Shown here in pieces: positions 14,206 through 38,786 of a stretch of DNA of 64,000 nt. Under the pieces are notes generated by a model. The model had not been told where the DNA came from. It did no database searches and saw only the letters and a list, made by a program, of their open reading frames with translations. Position 1 is the first letter of the stretch. Every line of letters begins with the position of its first letter. A program made the position numbers and the translations under genes. The DNA comes from Pseudomonas viciae. Its GTDB lineage: Bacteria; Pseudomonadota; Gammaproteobacteria; Pseudomonadales; Pseudomonadaceae. The stretch lies in NCBI RefSeq assembly GCF_004786035.1, contig NZ_CP035088.1:2578001-2642000 (forward strand), written 5' to 3'.

Positions 14206-14208
14206 GGC

Positions 14209-17405: not shown

Positions 17406-17418
17406 AGTCTGCTCTGCG

Positions 17419-20493: not shown

Positions 20494-20528
20494 TTTCTTG
20501 TTGGGAATAAAATATTCCTGAAATGGCT
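20494..20528. promoter_or_regulatory. Candidate operator pair, purU promoter
   Basis: TTTCTTGTTGGGAAT (20494-20508) and ATTCCTGAAATGGCT (20514-20528) match the 15-bp palindrome seen at the gmaS and dmm promoters, spaced exactly 20 bp. The second copy has only a good left half. The centre also forms the separate palindrome GGAATA-AAA-TATTCC. It lies about 85-120 bases upstream of the purU ATG on the minus strand. Confidence 0.6.
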
Positions 20529-20638
20529 TTATAGGGGAGTGGGGGCGGGACGTCTAGAGTTTTGGGAAAGATTTTTAACTGAGGGGAATTTTTTGCGAGG
20601 GAAGGCGACTCGGTTTCTTCGTTCGAACGCGGTCAAAA

Positions 20639-20731
20639 ATGTGGGAGAGGGCTTGCTCGCGAATGCGCTCTGTCAGTTGATAGAGATGACAACTGGCACA
20701 TCGCATTCGCGAACAAGCCCGCTCCCACAGG
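20639..20731. repeat. REP pair (REPIN), inverted
   Basis: GTGGGAGAGGGCTTGCTCGC (plus) and an opposite copy ending AACAAGCCCGCTCCCAC face each other across about 45 bases, downstream of the XRE-cupin gene. Confidence 0.9.
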
Positions 20732-20759
20732 TTGATCTTCATGCATCGGGAGGGAGGCG

Positions 20760-21365
20760 TTACTCTTTGTCGTTGCCGTAGTTCATGATCGACAAAAGGC
20801 GGATAGGCACCTGCACCAGTTGCTCGGGGCCGTGGGGGATTTCGCCTTCGAACGTCAGACTGTCGCCAGCTTCCATGCGGTAAAGCTGATTGCCGTGGCG
20901 ATAGATCAGTTCACCTTCCAGCAGATGAAGGAATTCGGTGCCGGGGTGAGAGAAGGTCGGAAACTCCTCACTCGCGTCGTCCATGCTGACCATATAAGCC
21001 TCGAAGCTCTTCTTCGGCCCGCGGGTATGGTTGAGCAGATGGTACGTATGGCCTTTCTCGGTGCCACGGCGCACCACTTCCATGCCCTGGTCAGCCTTGA
21101 CCAGAAGCGCACTGCCGTCTTGTTGGTCGTATTCGCTGAACAACTTGGACAGTGGCAGGCCGAGCACGTCGCACAGACGGCTCAGGGTATCGAGGCTGGT
21201 GGATACCTGGGCGTTTTCGATCTTGCTCAACATGCCTTGACTGATATCGGCAATCTTGGCCACGTCAGACAATTTCAGATCCTGGGCCTGGCGCTGACGC
21301 TTGATCTGCAAGCCCAGGTATTGCTCAAGCTTGAGGCGCGGGGCGGTTTCGGTCGGCATAGTCAT
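20760..21365 (-). CDS. XRE-family regulator with cupin domain
   Basis: This is a one-component regulator of about 200 residues. The N-terminal helix-turn-helix (about 15-65) reads IKRQRQAQDLKLSDVAKIAD followed by SQGMLSKIENAQVSTSLDTLSRL. The C-terminal cupin (about 115-190) has PTFSHPGTEFLHLLEGELIYRHGNQ and GDSLTFEGEIPHGPE, the two cupin motifs with their His and Glu ligands. It probably binds a small metabolite or metal. It lies between the purU/mgd operon and the divergent gmaS/mgs operon, so it is the best candidate to bind the shared palindromes. I use the ATG at 21363-21365 (AGGA before it); a GTG at 21377 is also possible. Confidence 0.9.
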   Translation of the reverse strand: MTMPTETAPRLKLEQYLGLQIKRQRQAQDLKLSDVAKIADISQGMLSKIENAQVSTSLDTLSRLCDVLGLPLSKLFSEYDQQDGSALLVKADQGMEVVRRGTEKGHTYHLLNHTRGPKKSFEAYMVSMDDASEEFPTFSHPGTEFLHLLEGELIYRHGNQLYRMEAGDSLTFEGEIPHGPEQLVQVPIRLLSIMNYGNDKE

Positions 21366-21453
21366 CAAATCCTGCACACTTTCCGTTCAGTAATATTAGT
21401 TTCGCACTGAGAAAGTGCAAATGGCGGCGTTCGGCTCGCGTCTATTGAGCGAT

Positions 21454-21488
21454 ATTCCCACGGGGAAAAGAATTTTCCCATATATACA
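21454..21488. promoter_or_regulatory. Candidate operator pair, distal gmaS / XRE promoter side
   Basis: ATTCCCACGGGGAAA (21454-21468) and TTTCCCATATATACA (21474-21488; good left half only) are 20 bp apart. They overlap a perfect 17-bp palindrome, GGGAAAA-GAA-TTTTCCC, at 21463-21479. The pair lies about 90 bases upstream of the XRE-cupin start and about 70 bases upstream of the gmaS sigma-54-like promoter, so it may serve either gene. Confidence 0.65.
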
Positions 21489-21534
21489 GCACAAAAGCGC
21501 TTTTCTGGGAGGCTCGGCGCTTCACTCGCGAATC

Positions 21535-21550
21535 TGGCAAGGGCCTTGCA
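21535..21550 (+). promoter_or_regulatory. Sigma-54-type promoter for gmaS
   Basis: TGGCAAGGGCCTTGCA matches the sigma-54 consensus TGGCACG-N4-TTGCA, with GG and GC separated by exactly 10 bases. It would start RNA near 21560, leaving a leader of about 80 bases before the gmaS ATG. No activator site was identified with confidence; AAAAGCGCTTTT at 21493-21504 is a palindrome of unknown role. Confidence 0.65.
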
Positions 21551-21584
21551 TTCCTATTGGGAAAATAACTTTCTTTTTAGGAAT
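21550..21584. promoter_or_regulatory. Candidate operator pair, gmaS-proximal
   Basis: ATTCCTATTGGGAAA (21550-21564) and TTTCTTTTTAGGAAT (21570-21584) are 20 bp apart. They cover the predicted start point of the sigma-54-type promoter. A protein bound here would block transcription, so repression is the natural reading. Confidence 0.65.
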
Positions 21585-21641
21585 AAAAAGTCAGTCAAGG
21601 CCATCCACAATGTTTTGCCCTTTCGCGAGGAGTGACGAGCA

Positions 21642-22976
21642 ATGTTGCCAGCAGAAACCCAGCGCATCATCGACAAGCATGGAATCAAGTACGTGCTTGC
21701 GCAGTTTGTGGATATTCACGGTTCGGCCAAAACCAAGTCAGTGCCTATCTGTGGGCTCAAGGCGGTGGCCGAAGAGGGAGCGGGTTTTGCCGGATTCGCG
21801 ATCAGCGGCATGGGCATGGAGCCCCACGGGCCGGACTTCATGGCCCGCGGCGATTTGTCCACCTTGACTCCGGTGCCCTGGCAGCCGGGTTACGGGCGCG
21901 TGGTGTGCATCGGTCACGTCGACGGTAAGCCGCACCCGTACGACAGCCGTTATGTGTTGCAGCAACAAGTGCAACGCCTGGCAGAAAAGGGCTGGACGCT
22001 CAACACCGGCCTGGAGCCCGAGTTCAACCTGATGCGCCGCGACGCACAGGGCAAACTGCAACTGGTGGACCTCAGCGACAATCTGGACAAGCCTTGCTAC
22101 GACTACAAAGGCCTGTCGCGCTCCCGGGTTTTCCTTGAGCGGCTGACCGAAGCCTTGCAGGCAGTGGATTTCGAGGTCTATCAAATCGACCACGAGGACG
22201 CCAACGGCCAGTTCGAGATCAACTACACCTACAGCGACGCCATGACCTCGGCGGATCGCTTCACGTTTTTCCGCATGGCCGCCGGCGAAATCGCCAATGA
22301 CCTGGGCATGATCTGCTCGTTCATGCCCAAGCCCGACCCGAAACGGGCCGGCAACGGCATGCATTTTCACCTTTCGATCAGCAGCGCCGAGAACAGGAAC
22401 CTGTTCCATGACGCCAGTGATCCCAGCGGCATGGGCCTGTCGAAAATGGCCTATCACTTCGCCGCGGGCCTGCTTGCCCACGGCCCGGCGCTGTGTGCCT
22501 TCGCCGCGCCGACGGTCAACTCCTACAAGCGTCTGGTGGTCGGCAATTCGTTGTCCGGCGCGACCTGGGCGCCGGCCTTTATCGCCTTCGGCGCCAACAA
22601 CCGTTCGGCCATGGTGCGGGTGCCTTACGGCCGCCTGGAATTCCGCCTGCCGGACGCCGGTTGCAATCCTTATCTGGTCAGCGCCGCGATCATCGCTGCC
22701 GGCCTGGATGGCATCGATCGCCAGCTGGAAATCGACCACGTCTGCAATGAAAACCTCTACAGCCTGAGCCTGGAACAGATCGCCGCTCGGGGCATCAAGA
22801 CCCTGCCGCAATCGCTCAAGGAAGCCTGCGACGCCCTGGAAGCCGACCCGTTGTTCGCCGAGGTGCTGGGCCCGCAGATCGTAGGCGAGTTCATCAAGCT
22901 CAAGCGCATGGAGTGGGTGGAATACAGCCGCCACGTCTCCGACTGGGAGATCCAGCGCTACACCGAATTTTTCTGA
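21642..22976 (+). CDS. gmaS: Type III glutamine synthetase-like protein, probable gamma-glutamylmethylamide synthetase GmaS
   Basis: GmaS joins methylamine to glutamate using ATP, giving gamma-glutamylmethylamide, the first step of indirect methylamine use. The 444-residue protein is a GlnA/GlnT-family ligase: an N-terminal beta-grasp (about 15-105), then the catalytic barrel with [14 protein letters not shown] (metal-binding Glu), [24 protein letters not shown] and [26 protein letters not shown]. Type III glutamine synthetase (GlnT) is the sequence-level family. The methylamine role rests on the following mgsABC genes and the methylated-amine region around it. AGGAG lies 10 bases before the ATG. 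Confidence 0.85.
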
Positions 22977-23048
22977 CTCAGTGTTTTGCCAACCATTCGG
23001 GCACCCGGCTCGGCGTCGGATGTTCAGTGCCTTCGAAGGAGAATTGAT

Positions 23049-23954
23049 ATGTGTGGGATCGTAGGTCTTTACCTGAAAAATCCGCAGTTGGAATCCCAGC
23101 TCGGCAAGCTGTTTGAACCGATGTTGCAGGCCATGACCGACCGCGGGCCGGACAGTGCCGGGTTTGCCATCTATGGCGATGAAGTGGCGCACGGTTGGGT
23201 CAAGCTGACCCTGCAGGCGACCACCGACGGTTTCGATTGGAAAGCCCTGATGGGCGAACTGGAAGGGCGTCTTGGCTGCTCGCTGGACTGGTTCCAGAAC
23301 GCCAGCGCTGCCGTGCTCAAGATCAATGCCCAAGAGGCGCCGGTACGTCTGGCCCTCGCTGAACTGGCGCCGAGCGTGCGCATCATGAGCGCCGGCCAGA
23401 GCATCGAAATCCTCAAGGGCATGGGCTTGCCCCAGGAGATTTCCCAACGCTTCGGCCTGGCCGGCATGAAGGGCAGCCACATTATCGGCCACACCCGCAT
23501 GGCCACTGAAAGCGCGGTGACCATGGAAGGCAGCCACCCATTCTCCACCGGCGCCGACCTGTGCCTGGTGCACAACGGCTCGCTGTCCAACCACTTCCGC
23601 CTGCGTCAGGAACTCAAGCGCGAAGGCATTCACTTCGAGACCGACAACGATACCGAAGTGGCCGCCGGCTACCTGACCTGGCGCCTGCAGCAGGGTGACT
23701 CATTGAAAGAAGCGCTGGATCACTCGCTGGAGGATCTGGACGGTTTCTTCACTTTCGCCATCGGCACCCGCAACGGTTTTGCCGTGATCCGCGACCCGAT
23801 TGCCTGCAAGCCGGCGATCCTCGCCGAGACCGACGATTACGTCGCCATGGCCTCCGAGTATCAGGCCCTGTCGAGCCTGCCAGGCATCGAGCACGCCAAG
23901 GTCTGGGAGCCGGCACCGGCCACTATGTACATCTGGGAACGCGAGTCAGCTTAA
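23049..23954 (+). CDS. mgsA: N-methylglutamate synthase subunit A-like, class II glutamine amidotransferase
   Basis: This is the 301-residue Ntn-type amidotransferase subunit of N-methylglutamate synthase. Cleavage of Met1 exposes the nucleophile Cys2 (MCGIVGLYL). Further family motifs are GHTRMATESAV, CLVHNGSLSNHFRLR and TDNDTEVAAGYLTW. It is related to the PurF/GltB amidotransferase domain and to GlxB. Here it would take methylamine from gamma-glutamylmethylamide and channel it to the FMN subunit. I chose the ATG at 23049 because it places the Cys at position 2 and follows AAGGAG. First of three synthase genes. Confidence 0.88.
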   Translation: MCGIVGLYLKNPQLESQLGKLFEPMLQAMTDRGPDSAGFAIYGDEVAHGWVKLTLQATTDGFDWKALMGELEGRLGCSLDWFQNASAAVLKINAQEAPVRLALAELAPSVRIMSAGQSIEILKGMGLPQEISQRFGLAGMKGSHIIGHTRMATESAVTMEGSHPFSTGADLCLVHNGSLSNHFRLRQELKREGIHFETDNDTEVAAGYLTWRLQQGDSLKEALDHSLEDLDGFFTFAIGTRNGFAVIRDPIACKPAILAETDDYVAMASEYQALSSLPGIEHAKVWEPAPATMYIWERESA

Positions 23955-23965
23955 GGAGCGCACAC

Positions 23966-24649
23966 ATGAAAACCATCGACCTTTCCACGGCCACCGTGCG
24001 TGAACTCAATCAGGCGTTGCACGACCAGGTCAACAACGTTGAACACCACGAATGGGTGGTGAGTCATTCGGACGGCAAGCACAACCTCGCGGTCGGGGTG
24101 AACGAAGCACTGTCCATCGATATTCAGGGACACGCCGGTTACTACTGCGCGGGAATGAATCAAAAGGCCTCGATCACCGTGCACGGCAACGTCGGTGTCG
24201 GTTGCGCCGAGAACATGATGTCTGGCTACGTCCGCGTCAAAGGCAGCGCCTCCCAGGCCGCCGGTGCCACGGCCCATGGCGGGCTGCTGGTGATTGAAGG
24301 GGATGCCGGCGCGCGTTGCGGGATTTCCATGAAGGGCATCGACATTGTCGTGGGTGGCAGCATCGGCCATATGAGCTGTTTCATGGGCCAGGCCGGGCGT
24401 CTGGTGGTCTGCGGCGATGCCGGCGATGCGCTGGGCGATTCCTTGTACGAGACCCACATCTACGTGAAGGGCACTGTGGAGTCCCTGGGCTCCGATTGCA
24501 TCGAGAAAGAGATGCGAGCCGAGCACCTCCAAGAGCTCCAGGACCTGTTGAACCGTGCCGGTTTCGCGCACAAGGCGGCTGACTTCAAACGCTACGGTTC
24601 GGCCCGTCAGCTGTACAACTTTAAAGTCGATAACGCGTCCGCGTACTGA
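23966..24649 (+). CDS. mgsB: N-methylglutamate synthase subunit B-like, GXGXG protein
   Basis: This 227-residue subunit corresponds to the C-terminal right-handed beta-helix (GXGXG domain) of glutamate synthase. Repeating G-x-x-G-x-x-x-G steps run through VGVGCAENMMSGYVRVKGSA, AHGGLLVIEGDAGARCG and VVGGSIGHMSCFMGQAGRLVV. It has no known catalytic residues and probably holds the complex together. AAGGAG lies 7 bases before the ATG; it is 11 bases after mgsA. Confidence 0.88.
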   Translation: MKTIDLSTATVRELNQALHDQVNNVEHHEWVVSHSDGKHNLAVGVNEALSIDIQGHAGYYCAGMNQKASITVHGNVGVGCAENMMSGYVRVKGSASQAAGATAHGGLLVIEGDAGARCGISMKGIDIVVGGSIGHMSCFMGQAGRLVVCGDAGDALGDSLYETHIYVKGTVESLGSDCIEKEMRAEHLQELQDLLNRAGFAHKAADFKRYGSARQLYNFKVDNASAY

Positions 24650-24669
24650 TCCGCGCGAGGAGAACAGAT

Positions 24670-26010
24670 ATGAGCGATCCAATCAGCGAAAAAGCGGCTC
24701 CGGTACTGCGCGAGTCAGCCACCTTCGACCGCCTGACCATCCAGGAAATCCAACGGGCCGCCGAGACTGGCATCTACGATATTCGTGGCGGCGGCACCAA
24801 GCGCAAATTGCCGCACTTCGATGACTTGCTGCTGCTCGGCGCCAGCGTTTCGCGTTACCCGTTGGAAGGCTATCGGGAGAAGTGCGGCACCGATGTGATC
24901 CTCGGCAACCGCTTTGCCAAGAAGCCGATCCACCTGAAGATTCCGGTGACCATCGCCGGCATGAGCTTCGGTGCGTTGTCGGCCAATGCCAAGGAGGCCC
25001 TGGGCCGTGGCGCGACCATCGCGGGCACCAGTACCACCACCGGTGACGGCGGCATGACCCCGGAGGAGCGCGGTCAGTCGCAGCACTTGGTCTATCAGTA
25101 TTTGCCGTCGCGCTACGGTATGAACCCGGACGACTTGCGCAAGGCTGACGCGATTGAAATCGTCCTGGGGCAGGGCGCCAAACCTGGCGGCGGCGGTATG
25201 TTGCTGGGGATGAAAGTCACCGAGCGTGTTGCCGGCATGCGCACCTTGCCGATTGGCGTCGATCAGCGCAGTGCCTGCCGTCACCCCGACTGGACCGGCC
25301 CGGATGACCTGGCGATCAAGATTGCCGAGATCCGCGAAATCACTGATTGGGAAAAACCGATCTACGTGAAAATCGGCGCCAGCCGGCCGTACTACGACGT
25401 CAAGTTGGCCGTGAAGGCCGGGGCGGATGTGATTGTGCTCGATGGCATGCAAGGCGGGACGGCGGCAACCCAGGAGGTCTTTATCGAGCACGTGGGAATT
25501 CCGATTTTGTCGGCCATCCCGCAAGCGGTACAGGCTTTGCAGGAGATGGGCATGCATCGCAAGGTACAGCTGATCGTTTCTGGAGGGATTCGCAACGGTG
25601 CCGACGTCGCCAAGGCCATGGCGCTGGGTGCGGATGCGGTGGCCATCGGCACCGCTGCACTGATCGCGCTGGGCGACAACCACCCGCGCCTGGACGAGGA
25701 ACTGAAGAAAATCGGCTCGGCCGCCGGTTTTTACGATGATTGGCAGAACGGTCGCGACCCGGCCGGGATCACGACGCAGGACCCGGAGCTGTCCAAGCGG
25801 CTGGACCCGGTGGAGGGTGGTCGGCGCTTGGCCAACTACCTACGTGTCCTGGTGCTGGAAGCCCAGACCATGGCCCGCGCTTGCGGCAAGTCGCACCTGC
25901 ACAACCTCGATCCCGAGGATTTGGTAGCGCTGACGGTGGAGTCAGCGGCCATGGCCCGGGTGCCGTTGGCGGGGACCAACTGGGTTCCAGGTTCTGGTAC
26001 CGGTTACTGA
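24670..26010 (+). CDS. mgsC: N-methylglutamate synthase subunit C-like, FMN-binding glutamate synthase domain
   Basis: This is the 446-residue FMN/iron-sulfur catalytic subunit, equivalent to the synthase domain of GltB. It shows IPVTIAGMSFGALSANAKEALG, GTSTTTGDGGM, GQGAKPGGGGMLLG, a TIM-barrel FMN phosphate site (VIVLDGMQGGTAATQE; IVSGGIRNGADVAKAMALGA) and VAIGTAALIALG. It would aminate 2-oxoglutarate with methylamine to N-methylglutamate. A Rhizobium GlxD-type function is the alternative. GAGGAG precedes the ATG. A REP pair and then amt follow. Confidence 0.88.
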   Translation: MSDPISEKAAPVLRESATFDRLTIQEIQRAAETGIYDIRGGGTKRKLPHFDDLLLLGASVSRYPLEGYREKCGTDVILGNRFAKKPIHLKIPVTIAGMSFGALSANAKEALGRGATIAGTSTTTGDGGMTPEERGQSQHLVYQYLPSRYGMNPDDLRKADAIEIVLGQGAKPGGGGMLLGMKVTERVAGMRTLPIGVDQRSACRHPDWTGPDDLAIKIAEIREITDWEKPIYVKIGASRPYYDVKLAVKAGADVIVLDGMQGGTAATQEVFIEHVGIPILSAIPQAVQALQEMGMHRKVQLIVSGGIRNGADVAKAMALGADAVAIGTAALIALGDNHPRLDEELKKIGSAAGFYDDWQNGRDPAGITTQDPELSKRLDPVEGGRRLANYLRVLVLEAQTMARACGKSHLHNLDPEDLVALTVESAAMARVPLAGTNWVPGSGTGY

Positions 26011-26018
26011 CAAAAAAC

Positions 26019-26111
26019 TGTGGGGGCGAGCTTGCTCGCGAAGACGGCGGCACAGGCAAAACCGATGCAAGCTGACCCGCCGCTATCGCGAGCAAGCTCG
26101 CTCCCACAAGT
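26019..26111. repeat. REP pair (REPIN), inverted
   Basis: GTGGGGGCGAGCTTGCTCGC and an opposite copy TATCGCGAGCAAGCTCGC-TCCCAC face each other between mgsC and the ammonium transporter gene. They could reduce readthrough from the mgs genes into amt. Confidence 0.88.
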
Positions 26112-26211
26112 CCTGTTCATGGCATTTATATTCGAGAGGCTGAAAAGGCCCGTATCTCATTCTTTACTGCTCGCTGCCCGACACTCACCTTTCTTTGCAG
26201 GAGCTTTGAAC

Positions 26212-27535
26212 ATGGTCAATCGTCTTCTCGGAAAATCCCTTCTTGGCTTATTGGCGACCGGTGCACTTGCGCCATTGGCCCAGGCCGCCGATGCCCCCGC
26301 GTTGAACACTGGCAGCACCGCCTGGATGGTCACTGCCGCGGTGCTGGTGCTGTTTATGTGTCTACCGGGTCTGGCATTGTTTTACGGCGGCCTGGTCCGG
26401 GCAAAAAACATGCTTTCGCTGTTCACCCAGTGCTTCGGCATCGCCGGCCTGGTCGGCGTGTTGTGGGTGATCTATGGCTACAGCATGGTGGTCGACAGCA
26501 CCGGCATGATTGAGGGGCAGGTGACGTTCAACAGTTTCGTCGGCGGTTTGAGCCGGGCCTTTCTGGCGGGCATGACCCCGGAGAGCCTGGTGGGGGATAT
26601 TCCGGAGGGCGTGTTCGTGACCTTCCAGATGACCTTCGCGATCATCACCCCGGCGCTGATTGCCGGTGCGTTCGCCGAACGCATGAAGTTTTCGGCGGCG
26701 CTGTGGTTCATGGCGTTGTGGTTCACCCTGGTGTATGCCCCGGTGGCGCATATGGTCTGGGGTGGCGCGGGCGCTTTGATGCATAACTGGGGGGTACTCG
26801 ATTTCGCCGGTGGCACCGCCGTGCACATCAATGCCGGCGTCGCCGCTTTGGCCGCGTGCCTGATTCTTGGCAAGCGCAAGGGCTATCAGAACACGCCGAT
26901 GCCCGCCCACAACCTGAGCCTGACCATGGCCGGTGCGGCGATGCTCTGGGTGGGTTGGTTTGGCTTCAACATCGGTTCCGGCGGTGGCCTCAACGGCACT
27001 TCAGGCATCGTCATGCTCAACACCCAGTTGGGGGCGTGCGCGGGTATTCTCGGCTGGATGTTCACCGAGTGGTTCAAGGTTGGCAAACCCAGCGCTCTGG
27101 GCCTGGCCAGTGGTGCCTTGGCCGGGCTGGTCGGCATCACCCCGGCGTGCGCGTATGTCGGCGTCGGTGGTGCGTTGGCCATCGGTTTGTTGTGCGGGGT
27201 GTTCTGCTACTTGAGCGTCACCGTGCTCAAGCGGCGCTTCGGTTATGACGACAGCCTCGACGTGTTCGGCTTGCACGGCATTGGCGGGATGATTGGCGCG
27301 GTGTTGACCGGGGTGTTCTGTGTGCCGTCGGTGGGGGATTGGTCGAAGGCGTGACCATGGGGCCCAGGTCGTGGCGCAAATCAAAGGCGTATTGCTGACG
27401 ACGGTTTACTGCTTTGTCATCAGTTGGGTCATTCTCAAGGTGATCAACGCGGTGATCGGCTTGCGCGCCGATGAGTCGGTGGAGGAGATGGGGCTGGACC
27501 TGGCTGAACACAACGAACGTGCCTACAACCACTGA
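26212..27535 (+). pseudogene. amtB: Ammonium transporter (Amt), two frameshifts near the 3' end
   Basis: This is an Amt/Rh family ammonium (or methylammonium) channel with a cleavable signal (GALAPLAQAADAP) and the usual 11 helices. Family motifs include LFYGGLVRAKNMLS, AGAFAERMKFSAALWF, GGAGALMHNWGVLDFAGGTAVHINAG and WVGWFGFNIGSGG. The frame ends early at a TGA near 27352. The expected C-terminus (VAQIKGVLLTTVYCFVISWV ... AEHNERAYNH) continues in another frame to 27535. Comparing the two frames, one G is missing in the G run near 27331 and another in the G run near 27360. If these are sequence errors, the protein is intact and about 440 residues long. Amt would import ammonium or methylammonium for gmaS. 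Confidence 0.85.
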
Positions 27536-28640: not shown

Positions 28641-28765
28641 GCGAGCAAGTGCAGGGTGGTGCTGATCAAAAGAGTCACCGTTGGCTTGAAATGATAGAGG
28701 GGCGAAATAATCACCGAGGCGTCGTTGCGCCTCGATGATTAGCGAAGATCTGCAAGCAAGGGCGC

Positions 28766-30441: not shown

Positions 30442-30518
30442 CTTCGTATTCCCATGTCTGAGTAGCGGAGTAGTGGGGGCAGTCAAAGTCAGGGTGGCGC
30501 CCAGGTCCGTCTGGTCGA

Positions 30519-32861
30519 TCAACTGCGCACCCGGCTCTTTTGCGGGTCGTAGAAAATCGCTGCGGTGACCTCGGCGCTGATGCGCTTCTGCAGGCCATCG
30601 ACTTTGCCGATCTCAAGCATCGTGCCGACGTCGGCGCAGGCCACGTCGACCCGGCACAGCGCGATGTTGCTGGCCAGCAGCGGCGAGCGGCAGGCACTGG
30701 TGATGACCCCGACCTGGGCCCGGCCGCGATACACCGGGTCACCGTGGTGGGCGCCTTCGTTGCCACTCAGTTGCAGGCCCACCAGCTTCTGGGCGGGGTG
30801 GGCACTGCGCCGCAACAGCGCATCGCGGCCGATGAAATCGTCGGTTTTGCTGTTCATCGGCACGCTAAAGCCGATACCCGCTTCGAAAGGATCGGTCTGG
30901 TCGCTGAACTCGTAGCCGGCGAAAATCAGCCCGGCTTCGATGCGCAGCATGTCCAGTGCTTCCAGGCCCAGCGGCACCAGGCCCAGGGGTTGGCCCAGTT
31001 GCCAGATCCGGTCCCAGACCCGCTCGGCATCCTCGGGCTGGCACCAGACTTCGTAGCCCAGTTCGCCGGTGTAGCCGGTGCGCGAGATCATCAGCGGGCA
31101 GCCGTCGTAACCGTCCAGGCGGCCCACCAGGAAGCGGAACCAGCCCAGGGTTTCCAGGCTCGGTTGGGTCGGTGGGGTCCAGACCATCTGTTTGAGCAGT
31201 TCACGACTCATCGGGCCCTGGACGGCCAGGTTGTGAATCTGCTCGCTGGCGGATTTGACCCAGACCTTCATGCCGAGCTTTTGCGCCTGTTCGCGCAGCC
31301 AGACTCCGGCGTAATCCTCGCCGCAGATCCAGCGGAAATTGTCCGGGCCCAGGCGCAGCAGGGTGCCGTCGTCGAGCATGCCGCCGTGTTCGTGGCACAT
31401 CGCCGAGTACACCACTTGACCCACCGCCAGGCGCCGCACATCCCGGGTCAGGCAGTACTGCAGCAAGGCTTCGGCGTCGGGGCCGAGGATTTCGAATTTG
31501 CGCAGGGCGGTCAGGTCCATCACCGCGACGCGTTCGCGGCAACCGAGGTATTCCTCGATGGCGCCATAGCCGTCGTAGCGCAGCGGCAGCCACCAGTTGC
31601 GGTAGTCGGCAAAGCTGCCGGTCAAGGCGCTGGTGCGTGAATGGAACGCGGACTCACGGGTGAGGATCGGGTCGGCATCGGCCGTGGTACGAGTGCTCAT
31701 GGCGATGGAAAAACGCTCCTTTTCGCTGTAGATACGGACATGGATATCGGTTGGGTTCCAGCCGTTGGCCGGGTCGATGTCATCGGGGCATGAGGTGCTG
31801 CCACACAGCAGATCGGTCATGGCCCGCAGCAGCACGTAATCGCCGGGTCGCGACCAGGGCTCGTCGAGCGTCATCTGCTGGTGGGCGTCGATCCCGGTGT
31901 TGAAGAACAAATTGATCGCCGGCCAACCGCTGCGAGCCTCGACCCCATGAGGTGCCAAGGCCCGGCTCAGGTTGTCGCTGCAGTTGTCGTGCCCGAAGTA
32001 GCCATGGCTTTCGTAGTAGCGCGCGGCGCAGGCCAGGGCGAAGGAGTCGTGGCGGCCGACGGTGTCACGCACCACCTCCAGCATCGGTTGCATCTGCCGG
32101 TCGAAAAACTTCGAGAACAATCCCGGTGCCGGGTAGGCGCTGCCGTTCAGGGTGCGGGTGACGGTCTGGTCCAGGTCCAGTTCCAGGCCACGATCCAATG
32201 CCCGCCGATCGAGGGCGACGAAGTCCGAGCATTGGCGACCGGCCACGTCCAGCACCTGCACGTACTGCCCTTTGCCGACCGTGTAACTGTGGGCGGTGCC
32301 GGCGTGAAGAGTGAATTCATCGAGCAACTCGCCCAACGGTTCGGGTAATGCCGGGAGCAGCAGCGACGAGGGATTGGCCCGTGTCACCCACAACCGCAGT
32401 TCGCTGGGCCGGTACTGCCGATCGACGGACGTGGGACCCGCGGGCGCGGCGACAATCACTAACAGTTCATCGTTGGCGACAAACTGGCGGCTGAAGTCGG
32501 CAGGGCTGTCCTCGTCCCAAAGTGAAGCGGCACTGGGCAGGTGGTCCGGATCAACGCCGCGTCGGCGCAACGCCTGGTGGATACGTCGAGCTTGCAAGGT
32601 CGGTTCGGCGAGCCGTGCGCCGATGAATTCGCAAGCCGCCGAACCGCTCAACGCCCAGGCCGACAGCGCGCTGCGGCCGAGCGTATCCATGGCCAGCAAT
32701 TGGCAGGGTTGCCGGCCTTCAAGGTCGATCACTTGCAGGCTGTCGCCGGGCTGCAGCGCGACAAGGGTCAGGCCGCCGGCGACCACCCGATAGCGCTCCA
32801 GGTCCGGGACCCGGGCAAAGAGTCCGGGCTCGCGCGGATGGGAAACACGAGGTGCGTTCAT
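30519..32861 (-). CDS. tdm: Trimethylamine N-oxide demethylase Tdm (DUF1989 + GcvT domains)
   Basis: Tdm splits TMAO into dimethylamine and formaldehyde. The 780-residue protein has the architecture known for bacterial Tdm. The N-terminal half (about 1-385) holds DUF1989-type domains, with GKGQYVQVLDVAGRQCSDFVAL and Asp213 in the position of an active-site acid. Candidate metal ligands are Cys278, Cys353 and Cys358. The C-terminal half (about 400-775) is a GcvT-like THF-binding domain (GCRERVAVMDLTALRKFEI; ISRTGYTGELGYEVWCQPED), which can trap formaldehyde. It starts 15 bases after tmm. The fusion and its place next to tmm make the assignment firm; activity is not shown here. Confidence 0.88.
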   Translation of the reverse strand: MNAPRVSHPREPGLFARVPDLERYRVVAGGLTLVALQPGDSLQVIDLEGRQPCQLLAMDTLGRSALSAWALSGSAACEFIGARLAEPTLQARRIHQALRRRGVDPDHLPSAASLWDEDSPADFSRQFVANDELLVIVAAPAGPTSVDRQYRPSELRLWVTRANPSSLLLPALPEPLGELLDEFTLHAGTAHSYTVGKGQYVQVLDVAGRQCSDFVALDRRALDRGLELDLDQTVTRTLNGSAYPAPGLFSKFFDRQMQPMLEVVRDTVGRHDSFALACAARYYESHGYFGHDNCSDNLSRALAPHGVEARSGWPAINLFFNTGIDAHQQMTLDEPWSRPGDYVLLRAMTDLLCGSTSCPDDIDPANGWNPTDIHVRIYSEKERFSIAMSTRTTADADPILTRESAFHSRTSALTGSFADYRNWWLPLRYDGYGAIEEYLGCRERVAVMDLTALRKFEILGPDAEALLQYCLTRDVRRLAVGQVVYSAMCHEHGGMLDDGTLLRLGPDNFRWICGEDYAGVWLREQAQKLGMKVWVKSASEQIHNLAVQGPMSRELLKQMVWTPPTQPSLETLGWFRFLVGRLDGYDGCPLMISRTGYTGELGYEVWCQPEDAERVWDRIWQLGQPLGLVPLGLEALDMLRIEAGLIFAGYEFSDQTDPFEAGIGFSVPMNSKTDDFIGRDALLRRSAHPAQKLVGLQLSGNEGAHHGDPVYRGRAQVGVITSACRSPLLASNIALCRVDVACADVGTMLEIGKVDGLQKRISAEVTAAIFYDPQKSRVRS

Positions 32862-32876
32862 GGTGGCGCTCCCGGG

Positions 32877-34244
32877 TCAACCGATCGACTTGACGGACAT
32901 CGGCGGCTCAGCGAGGTACGCCGCCATCGAGTCGTCCAGCGCATGCAGCCAGGGGGTGTGGTGCGGCGGTGACTGGGTTCCGGTCATCAACGAGCGATAG
33001 GACTTGTCGCGATAGCCCATGATGTTTTCCGCTTTGTCGTGCTTCCAGTGCAGGAAGGTTTCATTGACGGCGGCGATGTCGAAGTTCGGGTAGTCGGTGG
33101 CGTCCACCAGGTGCTGGATATAGGCGCCCTGGTATTCGAACATTTGCTGGTTGGTTTCCAGGGTCTGTTCCCGTTCGTGCCATTGCCGGCTGTCGGCGAT
33201 CATTTCGGCCTGGCCGGGCAGTTGAATACGCCCCAGGATGACATCGCGGGCGTACCAGGCTTGCGCGTCGAACATGTTGAACGAGTACCACTGGTCCTGC
33301 ATGCCGAGGTAGATCAGCTGCGGGTTGGATTCCCAGAAAATGCCTTTGTACAGGTTCATCGGCCACAGCCGGTTATCGGTCTTGAGGCACAGTTCGTCCG
33401 GCAGGAAGGGGAAGTGATGTTTGTAGCCGGTGCAGAGGATCACCGCATCGATGTGCTTGTGGCTGCCGTCGATAAAGTACGCGCGGTTTTTTTCCAGGCG
33501 CTGCAACAGCGGTTTTTCTTCCCAATTGGCGGGCCAGTCATAGCCCATCGGCGCGGTGCGGTAGCAACTGGTGATGCTGCGGGCGCCGTATTTGTAGCAC
33601 TGGGAACCGATGTCTTCGGCAGAATAGCTGCTGCCGACGATGAGCAGATCCTTGCCCTTGAACTCCAGCGCATCGCGGAAATCATGGGCGTGCAGGACGC
33701 GCCCGCCGAACTGCTCGAATCCGGGGAAGTACGGCATCTTCGGCGTCGAAAAGTGCCCGCAGGCGTTGATCACATAATCGAACTCCTCCGAGGTCTGGGT
33801 ATCGCTGCCGTGGTCGTGGGCGAGCACCGTGAAGCGGCGAGTCGCTTGGTCAAAGGTGACCTGGCGCACCACGTTGTTGAACCGGATGTAATCCCGTACC
33901 CCGGCTTTTTCGACGCGGCCCTTGATGTAATCCCAGAGCACTTCTCGCGGCGGGTAAGAGCCGATGGGGCGGCCAAAATGTTCCTCGAAGGTGTAGTCGG
34001 CGAACTCCAGGCATTCCTTCGGGCCGTTCGACCACAGGTAACGGTACATGCTGCCATGCACCGGCTCGCCGTTCTCGTCCAGACCGGTGCGCCAGGTGTA
34101 GTTCCACATGCCGCCCCAATCCTGCTGTTTTTCAAAGCACACCAGTTCGGGAATGGCGGTGCCCTTGTCGCGGGCAGACTGGAAGGCGCGAAGTTGAGCC
34201 AGGCCGCACGGGCCGGCGCCGATGATTGCTACGCGTAGTGTCAT
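32877..34244 (-). CDS. tmm: Trimethylamine monooxygenase Tmm (flavin-containing monooxygenase)
   Basis: Tmm oxidises trimethylamine to TMAO with NADPH and O2. The 455-residue FMO has the FAD site GAGPCG at about 9-14, the Tmm-typical stretch [34 protein letters not shown], the FMO fingerprint [11 protein letters not shown], the NADPH loop [11 protein letters not shown] and [10 protein letters not shown]. Similarity to marine roseobacter Tmm is recognisable over the whole length. GGAGG lies 7-8 bases before the ATG. It is cotranscribed with tdm and lies behind purU2. Oxidation of other amines or sulfides is possible, as for all FMOs. Confidence 0.9.
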
Positions 34245-34265
34245 GAGCGTGCCTCCTGAGGGGTT

Positions 34266-35132
34266 TCAGCGAAAGATCACTGTCTTGTCCTGGTTGATGA
34301 ACACCCGGTGTTCCAGGTGGTATTTCAGGGCTTTGGAAAGGGCGACGGTTTCGGTGTCACGGCCGATGGCAACCAGCGAGTCGGGCAGGTGCGTGTGGTC
34401 GACGCGCTGGATTTCCTGCTCGATGATCGGCCCCTCATCGAGGTCGCTGGTGACGTAGTGGGCGGTCGCACCGATCAGCTTCACGCCCCGGTCATACGCC
34501 TGGTGATAGGGTTTGGCGCCCTTGAAACCGGGGAGGAACGAGTGATGGATGTTGATGGCCCGACCGGACAACTGCTGGCACAGGCCATCGGAGAGAATCT
34601 GCATATAGCGCGCGAGCACCACCAGGTCGGTCTGGGTGTCTTCGACAATGCGCATCAGCTCGACTTCCTGGCTGGCCTTGCTGTCCTTGGTGACCGGCAG
34701 GTAGATGAAGCGAATGCCTTCGCGTTCGGCCATGGCCCGCAGGTCCAGGTGATTGGAGACCACCGCAGTGATGTGCATGTCCATCTCGCCCTTGCGGTGG
34801 CGGTAGAGCAGGTCGGTCAGGCAATGGTCGAACTTGCTGACCATCAGCAGCACCCGGGTCGGCTGGCTTGAGCAGAACAGTTGCCACTGCATGTCGAAGC
34901 CGCCAGCCAGGTCGCCCAGGTCTTCACGCAGGGCGCCAATATCGCCGGTCACGCCGGTGTTGAAACGAAAGACCGCGCGCATGAAAAACTGCCCGGTGAA
35001 CTCGTCGTCGAATTGCGCGAGCTCACTGATGTAGCACTGTTGCCGGGCCAGGCAGGTACTGATGGCGGCGACGATGCCGGACGCCGCCGGGCAGTTGATC
35101 TTGAGAATGTAGTGTTCGCTGGAGGTGTCCAT
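34266..35132 (-). CDS. purU: Formyltetrahydrofolate deformylase PurU (copy 2)
   Basis: This is a second PurU of 288 residues, the same length as copy 1 and highly similar to it (shared [20 protein letters not shown] and [20 protein letters not shown]). The N-terminal ACT domain is present (INCPAASGIVAAISTCLAR). I chose the ATG at 35130-35132 (AGGGAG upstream); a TTG 18 bases earlier is weaker. It lies between dmmC and tmm, so formaldehyde captured on THF by Tdm and the DMA enzyme would be drained to formate here, with folD2 at the end of the same operon. Confidence 0.94.
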   Translation of the reverse strand: MDTSSEHYILKINCPAASGIVAAISTCLARQQCYISELAQFDDEFTGQFFMRAVFRFNTGVTGDIGALREDLGDLAGGFDMQWQLFCSSQPTRVLLMVSKFDHCLTDLLYRHRKGEMDMHITAVVSNHLDLRAMAEREGIRFIYLPVTKDSKASQEVELMRIVEDTQTDLVVLARYMQILSDGLCQQLSGRAINIHHSFLPGFKGAKPYHQAYDRGVKLIGATAHYVTSDLDEGPIIEQEIQRVDHTHLPDSLVAIGRDTETVALSKALKYHLEHRVFINQDKTVIFR

Positions 35133-35162
35133 CGAGGGCTCCCTGTGCAAGGTGGTAGAGGC

Positions 35163-36293
35163 TCAGCCCTTGGCCGTGCGCTTGGTTTTTTCCGGGTCGT
35201 CGAAGGGAAGGGCGTGGGTCACCGCGGCGCTTTCCTGGCTGCCACGCACCTGCAAGGCAATCCCGGGAACCGCGCAGGCGACGTTCATGCGGGCGATGGC
35301 CATGGAGCGTTTGCTCAGGCGCGAATACATGCCGCAGGTGATCACCCCGACTTGCTGATTGCCTTGCCACAGGGTGTCGCCCGCCTCGGCGGCGCGCACA
35401 CCTTCGAGCAACACGCCGGTGATCTTGAAACGCTCTTGGCCGCGCAACCGGAAGTGCTCCTCGGCGCCACGAAATTCGCGTTTGTCTGGAGAAACGGTGA
35501 AATCCAGGCCCATTTCCCACAGGGTGTCGCCGGCCTTCTGGTCGGCGAAGGGGTACATCTGCGAGTTGTCGTAGGGGAAAAACATCAGCGAGCTTTCGAC
35601 CCGCAACCAGTCCAGGGCGGTAAAGGCGCACGGGATGATGCCCAGGCCCGCGCCCTGTTCGAGGATGTTGTCCCACAGCGCCGGGGCGTCGGCCGCCTTG
35701 CAGAAAATCTCGTAGCCGCGTTCGCCGGTGTAGCCGGTGCGAGAGATCATCACCGGGCGATCGAACAGGCGGGTTTGCAGGTGATGGAAATAGGGCAACT
35801 GACGAATCCCGGGGACGTGCTCGGCGAGAAAGTCCACCGCCAGCGGTCCTTGCAGCGACAGGTCGTGCAGGTCGTCGTCGAACAGCACCGCCACTTGCCG
35901 GCCCTGGGATGAACGCACCAGCATTTCGTGACCGCTGCCGGCGCCGTGGACCACCATGAACGCGTTAGGCCCGGTGCGGTAGACGATGCAGTCATCGACG
36001 AACTTGCCTTCCTCGTCGAGCATCGAGGCGTACACCGATTTGCCGGGGTAGAGCTTGGCGATGTCGCGGGTGGTCGCCCATTGCAGCAGGCTTTCGGCAT
36101 GGGGCCCGACGTAGTGGACTTTCTTCAGCCCGGAAACGTCCATCAGCCCGGCGCGGGTGCGGATCGCTTGATGGTGATCGGCCAGGTCGCTGGCATAGGT
36201 CCAGGCCGTGCCCATGCCGTTCCAGTCTTCCAGGTTCGAGCCGAGCGCGCGGTGCCGTTCGGCCAGTGCAGAAATACGCCATGAATGAGCCAT
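35163..36293 (-). CDS. dmmC: GcvT-like THF-binding protein, probable dimethylamine monooxygenase subunit DmmC
   Basis: This is a 376-residue aminomethyltransferase-fold protein (GcvT family). Visible motifs are RAGLMDVSGLKKVHYVGPHA, ATTRDIAKLYPGKSVYASML, DLSLQGPLAVDFLAEHVPG, ISRTGYTGERGYEIFCKAAD and DWLRVESSLMFFPYD. It would bind THF and collect the formaldehyde released during dimethylamine demethylation. The ATG at 36293 follows AAGGA. DmmC as the name for the GcvT-like member of the dmm set is my reading of the literature naming. The fallback is aminomethyltransferase family protein. Confidence 0.78.
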   Translation of the reverse strand: MAHSWRISALAERHRALGSNLEDWNGMGTAWTYASDLADHHQAIRTRAGLMDVSGLKKVHYVGPHAESLLQWATTRDIAKLYPGKSVYASMLDEEGKFVDDCIVYRTGPNAFMVVHGAGSGHEMLVRSSQGRQVAVLFDDDLHDLSLQGPLAVDFLAEHVPGIRQLPYFHHLQTRLFDRPVMISRTGYTGERGYEIFCKAADAPALWDNILEQGAGLGIIPCAFTALDWLRVESSLMFFPYDNSQMYPFADQKAGDTLWEMGLDFTVSPDKREFRGAEEHFRLRGQERFKITGVLLEGVRAAEAGDTLWQGNQQVGVITCGMYSRLSKRSMAIARMNVACAVPGIALQVRGSQESAAVTHALPFDDPEKTKRTAKG

Positions 36294-36328
36294 GTGGAGG
36301 ATCCTTGTCGGTGAAAGTGGGTCAGGGT

Positions 36329-37342
36329 TCAGGCCTGGTCGAAGCGGCTCAGCCACTGGACCAGGGTCTGGCGGTAGCGGCTCATGCCTTTGTAGTCGGC
36401 GATCGGCTCGGGCAGGTCGCGCAGCACGCGGTGCAGGCGACAGCCCCAGCCGGGTTGAGTGACCAGTTCGTCCATGCTGATCAGGTAGGTGCGGATGCTG
36501 AACATCACCGCGTTGCTGCGCGGCAGGCGGGCCATCACTTGCAGCTCGACGCGCAGATGAACCTGCTGCCCGACGTTTTCGGCGGTGATGCGGCCGCGGT
36601 CGGCGCCCCATTCATGGAATGTCTCGGGCGAGGAGTCCAGGCGCGGGTTGATCGTCAGCGTCCAATTCAGGCGCCGCACCGGTTGGCCCACTTGCAGGTT
36701 GAGCAGGTACTTCAGCGCGCGGTCGAACACGCCCATCTGATGGGCCATGGGCACCGGTGAATGCCACTGCTTGAAGCTCATGCCGGCGTCGAAGGCCAGG
36801 GACCAGTCGGCCGGGCTGGTAACCAGGCCGGCGTCCATGTACAGATCGCCGTCGCGCTGATCGAGCAGGGCAAAATCACCCTGCACCTGGCGGCCGATGA
36901 ACGCCAGCGGCTCGCAGGGCAGGCTGCTGGCGTCACCGAAGACAAAGTGCTGATCGATATTGAGCAGCGTGTTGTGCCAATGCCAGTGATCACCGTCACG
37001 GGCCAGCCGGAACCATTGCGGATAGTCAGTGGCGAGGTGTTCCATGAGCATCTGCAGCGCATCCCAGGCGGCCACTTGCATGTGCGGCATCACCAGATAG
37101 CGGCGTGGATCCTTGTCCAGCACCAGGGCGCGTTCGGCCATTTCCGAGCGGTAGTGTTCGTCGATGTCGAAGCCATGCTCATAGATCGAACCGGGGTCGC
37201 GGGAGGTGGCCGGTTCGATATTTACCGAGTACAGGTAGCTGTCCTCGACAAAGGGAAAGGGAAAACGACGGATGGCCGCGGGGCTGTTGCGAAAGCTGAA
37301 GTCGTCGCGATAGCTCAGCACAGGGCTCGTTTGCAGGGGCAT
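36329..37342 (-). CDS. dmmD: DUF3445 haem-dependent oxidative N-demethylase, probable dimethylamine monooxygenase DmmD
   Basis: This 337-residue protein is of the DUF3445 / haem-dependent oxidative N-demethylase alpha-like family, the likely catalytic subunit converting dimethylamine to methylamine and formaldehyde. Conserved stretches include FPFPFVEDSYLYSVNIEPAT, RYLVMPHMQVAAWDALQMLM, FIGRQVQGDFALLDQRDGDL, RLNWTLTINPRLDSSPETFH and FSIRTYLISMDEL. There is no signal peptide. The start ATG at 37340-37342 follows AGGAGT. It lies between the reductase and the GcvT-like gene. Confidence 0.85.
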   Translation of the reverse strand: MPLQTSPVLSYRDDFSFRNSPAAIRRFPFPFVEDSYLYSVNIEPATSRDPGSIYEHGFDIDEHYRSEMAERALVLDKDPRRYLVMPHMQVAAWDALQMLMEHLATDYPQWFRLARDGDHWHWHNTLLNIDQHFVFGDASSLPCEPLAFIGRQVQGDFALLDQRDGDLYMDAGLVTSPADWSLAFDAGMSFKQWHSPVPMAHQMGVFDRALKYLLNLQVGQPVRRLNWTLTINPRLDSSPETFHEWGADRGRITAENVGQQVHLRVELQVMARLPRSNAVMFSIRTYLISMDELVTQPGWGCRLHRVLRDLPEPIADYKGMSRYRQTLVQWLSRFDQA

Positions 37343-37353
37343 GTCACTCACTC

Positions 37354-38283
37354 CTATAGGTCCAGCGAAATGCAGGGGCCGCTGCCGCGCGAGACGCAGG
37401 GCATCAGAAAGTCGGCCTGTTCGGCCGGGCTGAGGAAGCTGTCGCGATGTTCGATGGCACCGCCGGTGTGGCGTGTGATGCACTGGCCGCAGACCCCGCC
37501 ACGGCACAAGTTGGGCACTGAAAGACCTGCGTGCTCCAGGGCTTCGAGCAGGCTTTGCTCTGCCTCGACGCGCAAGCGCCGGCCACTGCGCAATAGCTGC
37601 AGGTCAAACGGTTGGCCTGGTTGCGCACCTTTGAATGCTTCGCAATGCAGGCGTTTGCGCGGCCAGCCGAGGCGCGTGGCCTCACGCTCAACCGCGTCGA
37701 GCAGCGACTGCGGGCCACAGGTGTAGACGTGGCTGCCCAGCGGCCGGCCGGCGAGGATCTGGTTCAGGTCGGGACGACTGTTGTACGCGTGCAGGCGCGC
37801 GCCGAGGCGCTGTTGCAGTTCGTCGAGGTAGGCGTCGCTAAGGCCCGGGCGGAACAGGTAATGCAGTTCGAAATCGACCTGCTGCTGTTCCATCGCGGCG
37901 ATATAGGCCATGAACGGCGTGATGCCGATGCCGGCGGCGATCAGGATATGCAGGCGTGCGGTGCCGTGGGGTGCGAACAGATTGGCCGGCGGCGAAATCT
38001 GCAAGGTGTCGCCGACCTGCACCTGGCGATGCAGGTACTGCGAGCCGCCACGAGAAGCATCCTGCAGGCGCACGGCGATGCGGTAGTGCTGGGTGTGCGC
38101 CGGGTCGCTGGTGAGCGAGTAGGCGTTGCGCACCTTGCCCTCGGCCAGTGGCAGATGCACCTGCACATGGCTGCCGGGCGAGAAGCCAGGCAGGGTGCCG
38201 TCGCAGGCCGTCAGGGTCAATTCGCGCACCACCGGCGTGAGCATTCTTGCTGCGCTGACTTGAACGTTGAGGGCCGCGCTCAT
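37354..38283 (-). CDS. dmmB: Flavin / 2Fe-2S oxidoreductase (PDR/VanB type), probable DmmB
   Basis: This is the electron-transfer subunit of the dimethylamine monooxygenase (309 residues). It has an FMN/FAD-binding barrel at about 5-95 (SPGSHVQVHLP; RNAYSLTSDPA), an NAD-binding domain at about 100-215 (LHILIAAGIGITPFMAYIAAM; VYTCGPQSLLDAVE) and a C-terminal plant-type 2Fe-2S ferredoxin whose Cys pattern is CRGGVCGQC followed by C-V-S-R-G near the end. The domain order is that of phthalate dioxygenase reductase. The stop is TAG at 37354-37356; the start overlaps dmmA as ATGA. Confidence 0.88.
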   Translation of the reverse strand: MSAALNVQVSAARMLTPVVRELTLTACDGTLPGFSPGSHVQVHLPLAEGKVRNAYSLTSDPAHTQHYRIAVRLQDASRGGSQYLHRQVQVGDTLQISPPANLFAPHGTARLHILIAAGIGITPFMAYIAAMEQQQVDFELHYLFRPGLSDAYLDELQQRLGARLHAYNSRPDLNQILAGRPLGSHVYTCGPQSLLDAVEREATRLGWPRKRLHCEAFKGAQPGQPFDLQLLRSGRRLRVEAEQSLLEALEHAGLSVPNLCRGGVCGQCITRHTGGAIEHRDSFLSPAEQADFLMPCVSRGSGPCISLDL

Positions 38284-38726
38284 GGCTGGAATGCCGCATA
38301 GGGCTGGTCGGGATCAATGCACACCCCGAGATAAGCCCCCAGGCGCCTGGAAAAATGCGCACGTACCTCAAGCCCGACGTTACAGCCGATGCAGTTCAAC
38401 ACTGCGTCCGGCCCGACAGCCTGGGTCAGGCCGCAATGTGCGCAATACACCTGGCGCAGGCCGGGCGTCGCACAGGGAATGTTGATCTCGTCGTCTTCCA
38501 GGCCAGCGGCGCGTGCCTCCCCGTGAACACGCCAAACAAAAGCTTCATCGCCCAGCAGGTAGAGCCGACAACCCACGGTTGCGCTGGCCAATACGTGTTG
38601 CAAGCGCCGGGCGAAGTCGGGGTGTTCGCCGTTCAGCAGCAGGGGATTGTCCAGTTCAGCGACAACCTGCGTGCAGGTGGTTGCCGATTGCATCACCACG
38701 ATGGGGCGGCTAAGGGTGGGCTTCAT
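38280..38726 (-). CDS. dmmA: DmmA-like subunit of dimethylamine monooxygenase
   Basis: This small protein (148 residues) opens the dmm operon. The first half (about 1-85) is an alpha/beta segment. The second half has the zinc-ribbon-like pattern YCAHCGLTQAVGPDAVLNCIGCNVGLEVR (CxxC...CxxC) and ends RRLGAYLGVCIDPDQP. This matches the DmmA-like family by position, length and cysteine pattern. Its exact role in the complex is not known to me. GGAGAG precedes the ATG, and the candidate operator pair lies 26-60 bases upstream. Confidence 0.8.
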   Translation of the reverse strand: MKPTLSRPIVVMQSATTCTQVVAELDNPLLLNGEHPDFARRLQHVLASATVGCRLYLLGDEAFVWRVHGEARAAGLEDDEINIPCATPGLRQVYCAHCGLTQAVGPDAVLNCIGCNVGLEVRAHFSRRLGAYLGVCIDPDQPYAAFQP

Positions 38727-38751
38727 GGGGGCTCTCCAAAGTGCTCTTTTG

Positions 38752-38786
38752 TTTCCTGTTGGGAGAGATACTTTCCTATAGGGAAA
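38752..38786. promoter_or_regulatory. Candidate operator pair, dmm promoter
   Basis: TTTCCTGTTGGGAGA (38752-38766) and TTTCCTATAGGGAAA (38772-38786, a near-perfect palindrome) are exactly 20 bp apart. They lie between the divergent dmmA gene and the NarX-like kinase gene. A third, weaker match (TTCTCAATCTGGAAA) begins at 38790. This is the best copy of the motif also present before purU and gmaS. Confidence 0.7.

Follow-up and report, generated by a model that had tools for sequence, protein, structure and literature searches.

A candidate XRE-cupin operator array at three methylated-amine promoters of Pseudomonas viciae

In P. aeruginosa, XRE-cupin proteins act as repressors at core promoters adjacent to the genes that encode them (PMC7901475, whose main text does not contain the word methylamine), and DbuR of P. 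putida gives a 44-bp footprint that includes a 20-bp palindrome (PMC12724383). We analysed a 64,000-nucleotide stretch of Pseudomonas viciae DNA (contig NZ_CP035088.1, positions 2,578,001 to 2,642,000; hereafter the window), in which a tandem palindromic array recurs upstream of methylated-amine operons that include a gene for an XRE-cupin protein among their neighbours. This regulator resembles the local repressors ErfA, PsdR, PauR and DbuR in its helix-turn-helix (HTH) and cupin domains and in the palindromic sites found in core promoters beside its own gene (PMC7901475, PMC12724383). It differs from them in its paired palindromes, set in 35-bp arrays, in the spread of these arrays over at least three promoters across 18 kb, and in the sigma54 promoter.

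In the PuuR/PauR pathway, the ligase parallels GmaS. PuuR and PauR are likewise XRE-cupins placed over the gamma-glutamylation pathway of an amine (PMC7901475). The best NCBIfam match of the present regulator is indeed PuuR (NF007408), but with only 67.8 bits against a cut-off of 211, so that by this measure it is no PuuR orthologue. HutC, in turn, is a repressor of the GntR family. The Pseudomonas hut operon is similar in its logic, as HutC, NtrC (with two palindromic subsites) and CbrB act on one sigma-N promoter; it differs in serving histidine instead of methylamine, and the passages on hut describe no such array (PMC8871633). For the geometry of the array there is a precedent in the restriction-modification controller C.Esp1396I, two dimers of which lie side by side on a 35-bp operator (PMC4041747). 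C.Esp1396I differs in controlling restriction genes and in its recognition sequence. It is also not known to have a cupin domain.

With regard to the pathway, TmaR/TmoR of Ruegeria pomeroyi coordinately controls tmm, tdm, dmm, gmaS-mgs and mgd, and TmaR homologues are reported from some gammaproteobacteria, including Pseudomonas sp. GX19020 (PMC13390433). TmaR, however, is an AraC-type activator, and the main text of that paper mentions no XRE protein, cupin or motif; no AraC-type name stands in the family lists (at most 25 entries each) of the 27 distinct proteins scanned, which represent part of the window genes. An XRE-family gene does co-occur in methylamine clusters of marine bacteria, according to a figure legend (PMC7574528). 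A search of the open full-text literature returned no description of this regulator or of its operator; the kind of regulator (an XRE-cupin repressor) and the HutC-like logic are known, while the regulon is apparently undescribed.

We propose, with a probability of roughly 0.8, that the array is the operator of the XRE-cupin encoded at 20760-21365, a local repressor of gmaS-mgs-amt, purU-folD-mgd and dmm-tmm-tdm, with gmaS probably also dependent on NtrC/sigma54 and dmm on a NarL-type activator. The array itself is real and conserved, and most likely defines an XRE-cupin regulon of three promoters, of which that of gmaS is probably also gated by sigma54/NtrC. Such a regulon would supply methylated-amine catabolism of Pseudomonas with a defined operator code and a named repressor candidate; the only regulator of this pathway that we found described is TmaR, of AraC type and from Ruegeria. 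It also predicts how substrate supply (through the repressor) and nitrogen need (through NtrC) are integrated in a single promoter, adds amt to the targets in some relatives, and provides an XRE-cupin with arrays long enough for the study of dimer-dimer cooperation.

A 35-bp array of alternating half-sites

The initial annotation of the window had described four pairs of 15-bp palindromes, at purU, at gmaS (distal and proximal) and at dmm. All eight 15-mers are present letter for letter at the positions given there, and the 20-bp spacing is exact within each of the four pairs, with the qualification that the purU and distal gmaS sites have three good half-sites, not four. Since the two palindromes are themselves separated by 5 bp, the 35-bp array is a better unit than the pair: four alternating half-sites 10 bp apart, WTTCC-N5-GGAAW-N5-WTTCC-N5-GGAAW. 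Arrays were scored by their match to WTTCC-N5-GGAAW placed twice at 20 bp, with a maximum of 20. The regulator gene and the arrays of the window are as follows (those at gmaS are called OA, OB and OC).

20760 to 21365, minus strand: XRE-cupin regulator gene, 201 amino acids, divergent from gmaS, with Pfam HTH_3 and Cupin_2 over the gathering score; the proposed repressor
21550 to 21584, plus strand: array OC (gmaS proximal), with four half-sites; its first base is the last one of the sigma54 element, and it lies over the expected start site; score 19
38752 to 38786, unstranded: dmm array, with four half-sites that extend across the expected -10 region; score 19
21454 to 21488, unstranded: array OB (gmaS distal, on the XRE promoter side), three strong half-sites and a conserved CATATATACA; score 17
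20494 to 20528, unstranded: proximal purU array, TTTCT-N5-GGAAT-N5-ATTCC with a weak fourth half-site, touching the TATAAA box; score 16
20555 to 20589, unstranded: distal purU array, ATTCC-N5-GTTAA-N5-TTTCC, abutting the -35 box; score 14, absent from the initial annotation
21380 to 21414, unstranded: putative array OA, just upstream of the XRE gene and interleaved with NtrC-like sites; score 17, likewise absent from the initial annotation

By score alone, OC and the dmm array are far from random. In thirty order-1 Markov copies of the whole window, the best scores ranged over 14-17, and among 2000 Markov copies of the three intergenic regions a score of at least 16 was reached in 24 and of at least 18 in one. 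In real DNA (80 related loci, 1,444,374 positions once the gmaS-XRE and purU regions are set apart), 11 positions scored at least 16. The genome-wide scan that had been suggested as a check gave the same picture: in the 6.7 Mb of the own genome, the full pattern with up to 1 mismatch occurs in two places only, OC at gmaS and the dmm array (1 mismatch each), and with up to 3 mismatches in six, four of them inside the cluster (the other two being OB and 21380, with 3 mismatches each), with no match of the reversed control. The two non-cluster places, also with 3 mismatches each, were set aside as chance-like, one being upstream of an OmpR-like response regulator (L085) and the other upstream of an open frame without relation to the pathway (L086); both identifications are by eye. 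With a three-half-site pattern and up to 1 mismatch, nine places are found, six in the cluster (OB, purU, OC twice and dmm twice) and three elsewhere, and one in the reversed control, so that the number of mismatches does not by itself single out the purU site. For the OB and purU arrays the support comes from conservation, which they have: comparison of orthologous promoters finds the motif conserved at gmaS (OC in 116/116, OB in 81/81), purU (56/56) and dmm (30/30).

Arrays in the gmaS, purU and dmm promoters

The 116 gmaS regions comprise the window, the best 80 of 119 related loci (79 Pseudomonas records and one unplaced gammaproteobacterium) and 35 regions from chosen genomes, which were oriented by the better sigma54-plus-array match and are partly redundant, some being genomes already among the 80 (e.g. 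L148 and L051). The gmaS gene is divergent from the XRE regulator in 80/80 related loci, and three blocks are kept in the intergenic regions: OA with the NtrC-like sites, OB, and OC. Besides the arrays, this region of the window contains three elements, which are absent from the initial annotation, as are the purU distal array, the putative OA and the dmm heptamers described below.

21535 to 21550, plus strand: gmaS sigma54-type promoter, TGGCAAGG-GCC-TTGCA
21374 to 21388, unstranded: NtrC-like site 1, GCAC-N7-GTTC
21404 to 21418, unstranded: NtrC-like site 2, GCAC-N7-GTGC

The -24/-12 consensus of sigma54 promoters is TGGC-N7-TTGC, and this motif stands directly before the array in 116/116 gmaS promoters. 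OC scores 17-20 in every one of them and starts 15 bp (108 regions) or 16 bp (8 regions) after the start of the sigma54 element. Column conservation, computed with a single representative of each 85% identity group and a score of at least 14 (36-38 of the 81 regions), shows near-invariant half-sites in OC and outer spacers that are not so. OB scores 15-18 in 81/81 regions, and OA 15-18 in 79/81, with 9 and 12 in the other two. A palindromic site stands beside the regulator's own gene (OB and OC, 81/81), and OC, which follows the -12 element throughout, overlaps the core promoter as predicted from sequence.

Upstream, GCAC-N7-GTGC is present in 110/116 regions, and a second, weaker NtrC-like site, GCAC-N7-GT[TAG]C, is found 30 bp away (start to start) in 67/81. 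The own genome has an RpoN gene and one NtrC over the cut-off. The sigma54 element and the tandem sites suggest activation of gmaS by NtrC when nitrogen is short, and the published NtrC sites of P. stutzeri (PMC8443478) count among the support for this nitrogen layer.

The status of OA is less clear than that of OB and OC. Its half-sites are overlapped by the two NtrC-like arms, which weakens the notion of a plain fifth pair at 21380-21414 and leaves a real chance, somewhat short of even, that OA is a tandem NtrC enhancer only and no repressor site; this would be compatible with the proposed repression at the other arrays. The six regions that lack GCAC-N7-GTGC divide on the question. OA is weak or absent in three of them (L137 scores 14, L062 scores 12 and in L131 it was not found), which favours the enhancer, whereas L072, L136 and L048 lack the motif and still score 17, 17 and 16. 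The conservation of OA half-site letters that lie outside the NtrC arms also argues for a site in its own right.

If OA is indeed bound by the XRE-cupin, the regulator on OA, OB and OC could form a repression loop that would hide the enhancer from NtrC and close the promoter, an AND gate with the operator code interleaved with the enhancer sites. We regard this extension as tentative and on balance unlikely. It was considered because the distances among OA, OB and OC differ for the most part in steps close to a full helical turn: between OA and OB they group at 44, 63-65 and 71-78 bp (112 regions; a value of 208 in L134 was set aside as a mis-pick of OA), and between OB and OC at 85-88, 95-99, 109, 134-155 and 189-202 bp (116 regions). 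This helical phase is only suggestive of looping. OB-OC spacings of 109 and 134-155 bp are off phase relative to 96, there are few independent length changes, and the weakness of OA in half of the regions where the NtrC arms are lost speaks against the loop as well.

Separately, in L051, L053 and L059 the OB-OC spacing is about 100 bp longer (190-202 bp), with GC-rich repeat-like stretches.

At purU, 56 regions were compared: that of the window and those of the 55 loci, out of 80, in which a purU with over 75% identity follows. The two arrays flank one promoter, whose boxes, like all -35 and -10 boxes in this work, were assigned by eye.

20528 to 20556, minus strand: putative purU sigma70-like promoter, TAGACG-N17-TATAAA

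The core of the proximal array, GAAW-N5-WTTCY, is present within 260 bp of purU in all 56 regions, and 52 of them also match a stricter pattern that takes in the TATAAA box. In the distal array, half-sites 1 and 3 keep their register in 55/56.

Upstream of dmmA, an array scoring at least 15 was found in all 30 loci compared (29 relatives and the window), the lowest being L115 and L116 at 15. Two further elements adjoin it.

38791 to 38796, minus strand: -35-like TTGAGA (by eye), followed by the array
38806 to 38826, minus strand: NarL-type heptamers TATCTCC-N7-TAGCCCT, or, read as 7-2-7, TATCTCC-AA-AGGCATA, upstream of the dmm -35

GATTGA or GATTGT precedes the array in 28/30 loci; it was not returned for L111 and L116, and L111 reads GCATTGATC there. 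Heptamers occupy the same place in the relatives, as TATCTCC...TAGCCCT in near ones and as TACCCCT or TACCCCC...TACCTCC and the like in diverged loci. The consensus of NarL-type heptamers is TACYYMT, and those at dmm are compatible with a site for a NarL-type activator, separate from the array.

From these positions we infer how the regulator would bind and repress, and how NtrC and the NarL-type protein would act. Two XRE-cupin dimers (or a tetramer) would lie side by side on the 35-bp site of four half-sites; the cooperative binding of two dimers proposed in the initial annotation is plausible by analogy. At gmaS, the repressor would cover the start of the sigma54 promoter and block open-complex formation or escape, with NtrC activating from the tandem upstream sites under nitrogen shortage. 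At purU-folD-mgd and dmm-tmm-tdm, the arrays would overlap sigma70-like core promoters, and at dmm the NarL-type response regulator probably activates from the heptamers just upstream of the -35. As a natural guess, the cupin domain would bind methylamine or a GmaS product (gamma-glutamylmethylamide or N-methylglutamate), and the repressor would then come off the DNA. The net effect would be that the genes are probably opened only with methylamines present, and the main one (gmaS) only when nitrogen is also short.

The same sites could in principle serve an activator or a dual regulator, as the upstream distance of OB from the promoter is one at which activators commonly bind and the purU arrays stand on both sides of the core promoter. 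We consider this improbable: OC directly 3' of the -12 element and the dmm array across the expected -10 are both repressor positions, and those XRE-cupins of P. aeruginosa whose regulons have been determined proved to be repressors (PMC7901475).

Distribution of the array and of its candidate owner

The survey of ownership covered 298 Pseudomonas genomes, with only the best few candidates scored per genome and strict E-value limits, so that "negative" means not detected. The XRE-cupin was detected in 71 genomes, gmaS in the same 71, a DmmA relative in 43 and the NarL-type regulator (at E 1e-75) in 25, all of them dmmA-positive. The array, at up to 1 mismatch, is present in 66 of the 298, against one for the reversed control, and it follows the regulator closely, with 65 of the 71 XRE-positive genomes and one of the 227 XRE-negative ones carrying it (Fisher p 2e-57, ignoring phylogeny). 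Three genomes with a distant dmmA and no XRE-cupin have no array. Of the 75 places listed, 54 are gmaS-XRE intergenic regions and 18 lie upstream of dmmA, which bears out the idea of an operator shared by methylated-amine promoters; the other three are in G276, G179 and G181.

Those three places differ in kind. G276 is the sole XRE-negative genome with an array, and there the array (L161, 2607-2641) lies directly upstream of a different XRE-cupin gene, of 25% identity; tandem arrays may be a wider feature of XRE-cupins. In G181, an Amt-like frame is preceded by the array, which again abuts a sigma54-like element (by eye). The array on contig C50 of G179 is probably due to chance, as it is inside a reverse-transcriptase-like open frame (by eye), and was discarded. 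Eight of the 11 background positions scoring at least 16 are also upstream of amt genes, in five loci (L056, L062, L064, L066 and L072), and L163 has an array at about 4553-4587 beside a sigma54-like element (by eye). It looks like amt is a further target of the regulon in some relatives.

Outside the genus, 19 regulator homologues with loci of 2.2-3.6 kb each were available out of 22 matches, and 11 of the 19 adjoin, within that length, a relative (more than 40% identity) of another cluster protein. The two nearest homologues, 63-66% identical and from two other families of the class, have 19/20 arrays. One of them (L165, 66% identity) shows a sigma54 element followed by the array at mgd instead of gmaS. 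The operator code thus seems to be common to the nearer relatives and to drift with the protein.

Several observations weigh against the XRE-cupin as the repressor that owns the arrays, in addition to the overlap of OA with the NtrC-like arms. Six of the 71 XRE-positive genomes have no array at up to 1 mismatch; among these six, OC scores 18 in G067, G070 and G086, and the dmm array scores 18 in G070 and G169. The co-occurrence statistics take no account of phylogeny. The gmaS and XRE genes occur in exactly the same 71 of 298 genomes, and because of this co-occurrence alone cannot separate the XRE regulator from a cis element of gmaS that serves a different protein. For L166, where the array is at gmaS, the search returned no sigma54 element, and the other 17 of the 19 outside homologues score at most 16 in their 2.2-3.6 kb. 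Finally, an ntrC mutant of P. stutzeri had enhanced, not reduced, metabolic activity on methylamine (PMC8443478), in a strain that may or may not have gmaS.

The inseparability of gmaS and the XRE gene within the genus leaves room for the arrays to belong to an unlinked protein that recognizes a TTTCC/GGAAA palindrome, the XRE gene being a mere neighbour. The arrays of G276, purU, dmm and amt and those in two other families are better at telling "regulator" from "gmaS" than co-occurrence is, and they make this very improbable. If the regulator were unlinked, one would expect sites in other parts of the own genome, which has none outside the cluster at up to 1 mismatch; the only array of a regulator-negative genome precedes another XRE-cupin gene; and arrays follow the 63-66% identical regulators into two other families. 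These comparisons strongly support the choice of the XRE-cupin as owner made in the initial annotation.

The NarL-type regulator had been named there as a less likely owner. The array is carried by 27 of the 31 XRE-positive genomes without a detected dmmA or NarL-type gene, and by 42 of all 46 XRE-positive, NarL-negative genomes, the latter count being weaker because diverged NarL-type frames adjoin dmm in four of those genomes (L112-L115). These frames match at 71-77% over short stretches and fall below E 1e-75, so that the NarL count is an undercount. That the array is the site of the NarX/NarL-type system beside dmm, with the XRE-cupin unrelated, was the least credible alternative and was rejected on the 27/31 count and on the separate, conserved TACCCCY-like heptamers that fit a NarL-type site at dmm, despite the position of the two-component genes about 100 bp from dmmA, their confinement (at E 1e-75) to dmmA-positive genomes and the frames missed by the threshold.

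Among the surveyed genomes, G065 has two gmaS-XRE pairs on contig C1 (about 2825882 and 2989690), each with its own array.

Genes of the cluster

In the 205-amino-acid open frame of the regulator, HTH_3 covers residues 25-79 and Cupin_2 residues 136-197, i.e. an N-terminal HTH and a C-terminal cupin; a PDB sequence search returned weak relatives only (1y9q, 5woq). The surrounding genes form four runs, in which mgs, mgd and some dmm genes are named after sub-cut-off family matches and from context.

21642 to 27354, plus strand: gmaS-mgsABC-amt; gmaS (TIGR03105) and amt (TIGR00836) over cut-off, mgs below cut-offs and named by context
13627 to 20410, minus strand: purU-folD-mgd; purU and folD over cut-off, the sox-like subunits below cut-offs
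27747 to 38726, minus strand: co-directional run of dmm, a gcvT-like gene, purU2, tmm, tdm, a permease gene and folD2; DmmA (NF041259), tmm (NF058570), tdm (NF053776) and purU2 over cut-off, folD2 a family match
38831 to 40685, plus strand: NarX-like kinase and NarL-type response regulator (family matches), the probable activator of dmm

By context, the sarcosine-oxidase-like subunits named mgd would form N-methylglutamate dehydrogenase.

The permease gene between tdm and folD2 (29032-30522) is TMAO-permease-like and matches a family of 520 positions in separate pieces (29392-30522 and 29032-29376), which do not share a frame. The gene, scanned as pieces, is possibly broken or mis-assembled.

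At 56014-56207 of the window, a C4 antisense RNA and its a1/b1 target family both match over the gathering score, a possible sign of a remnant of P4-like phage immunity.

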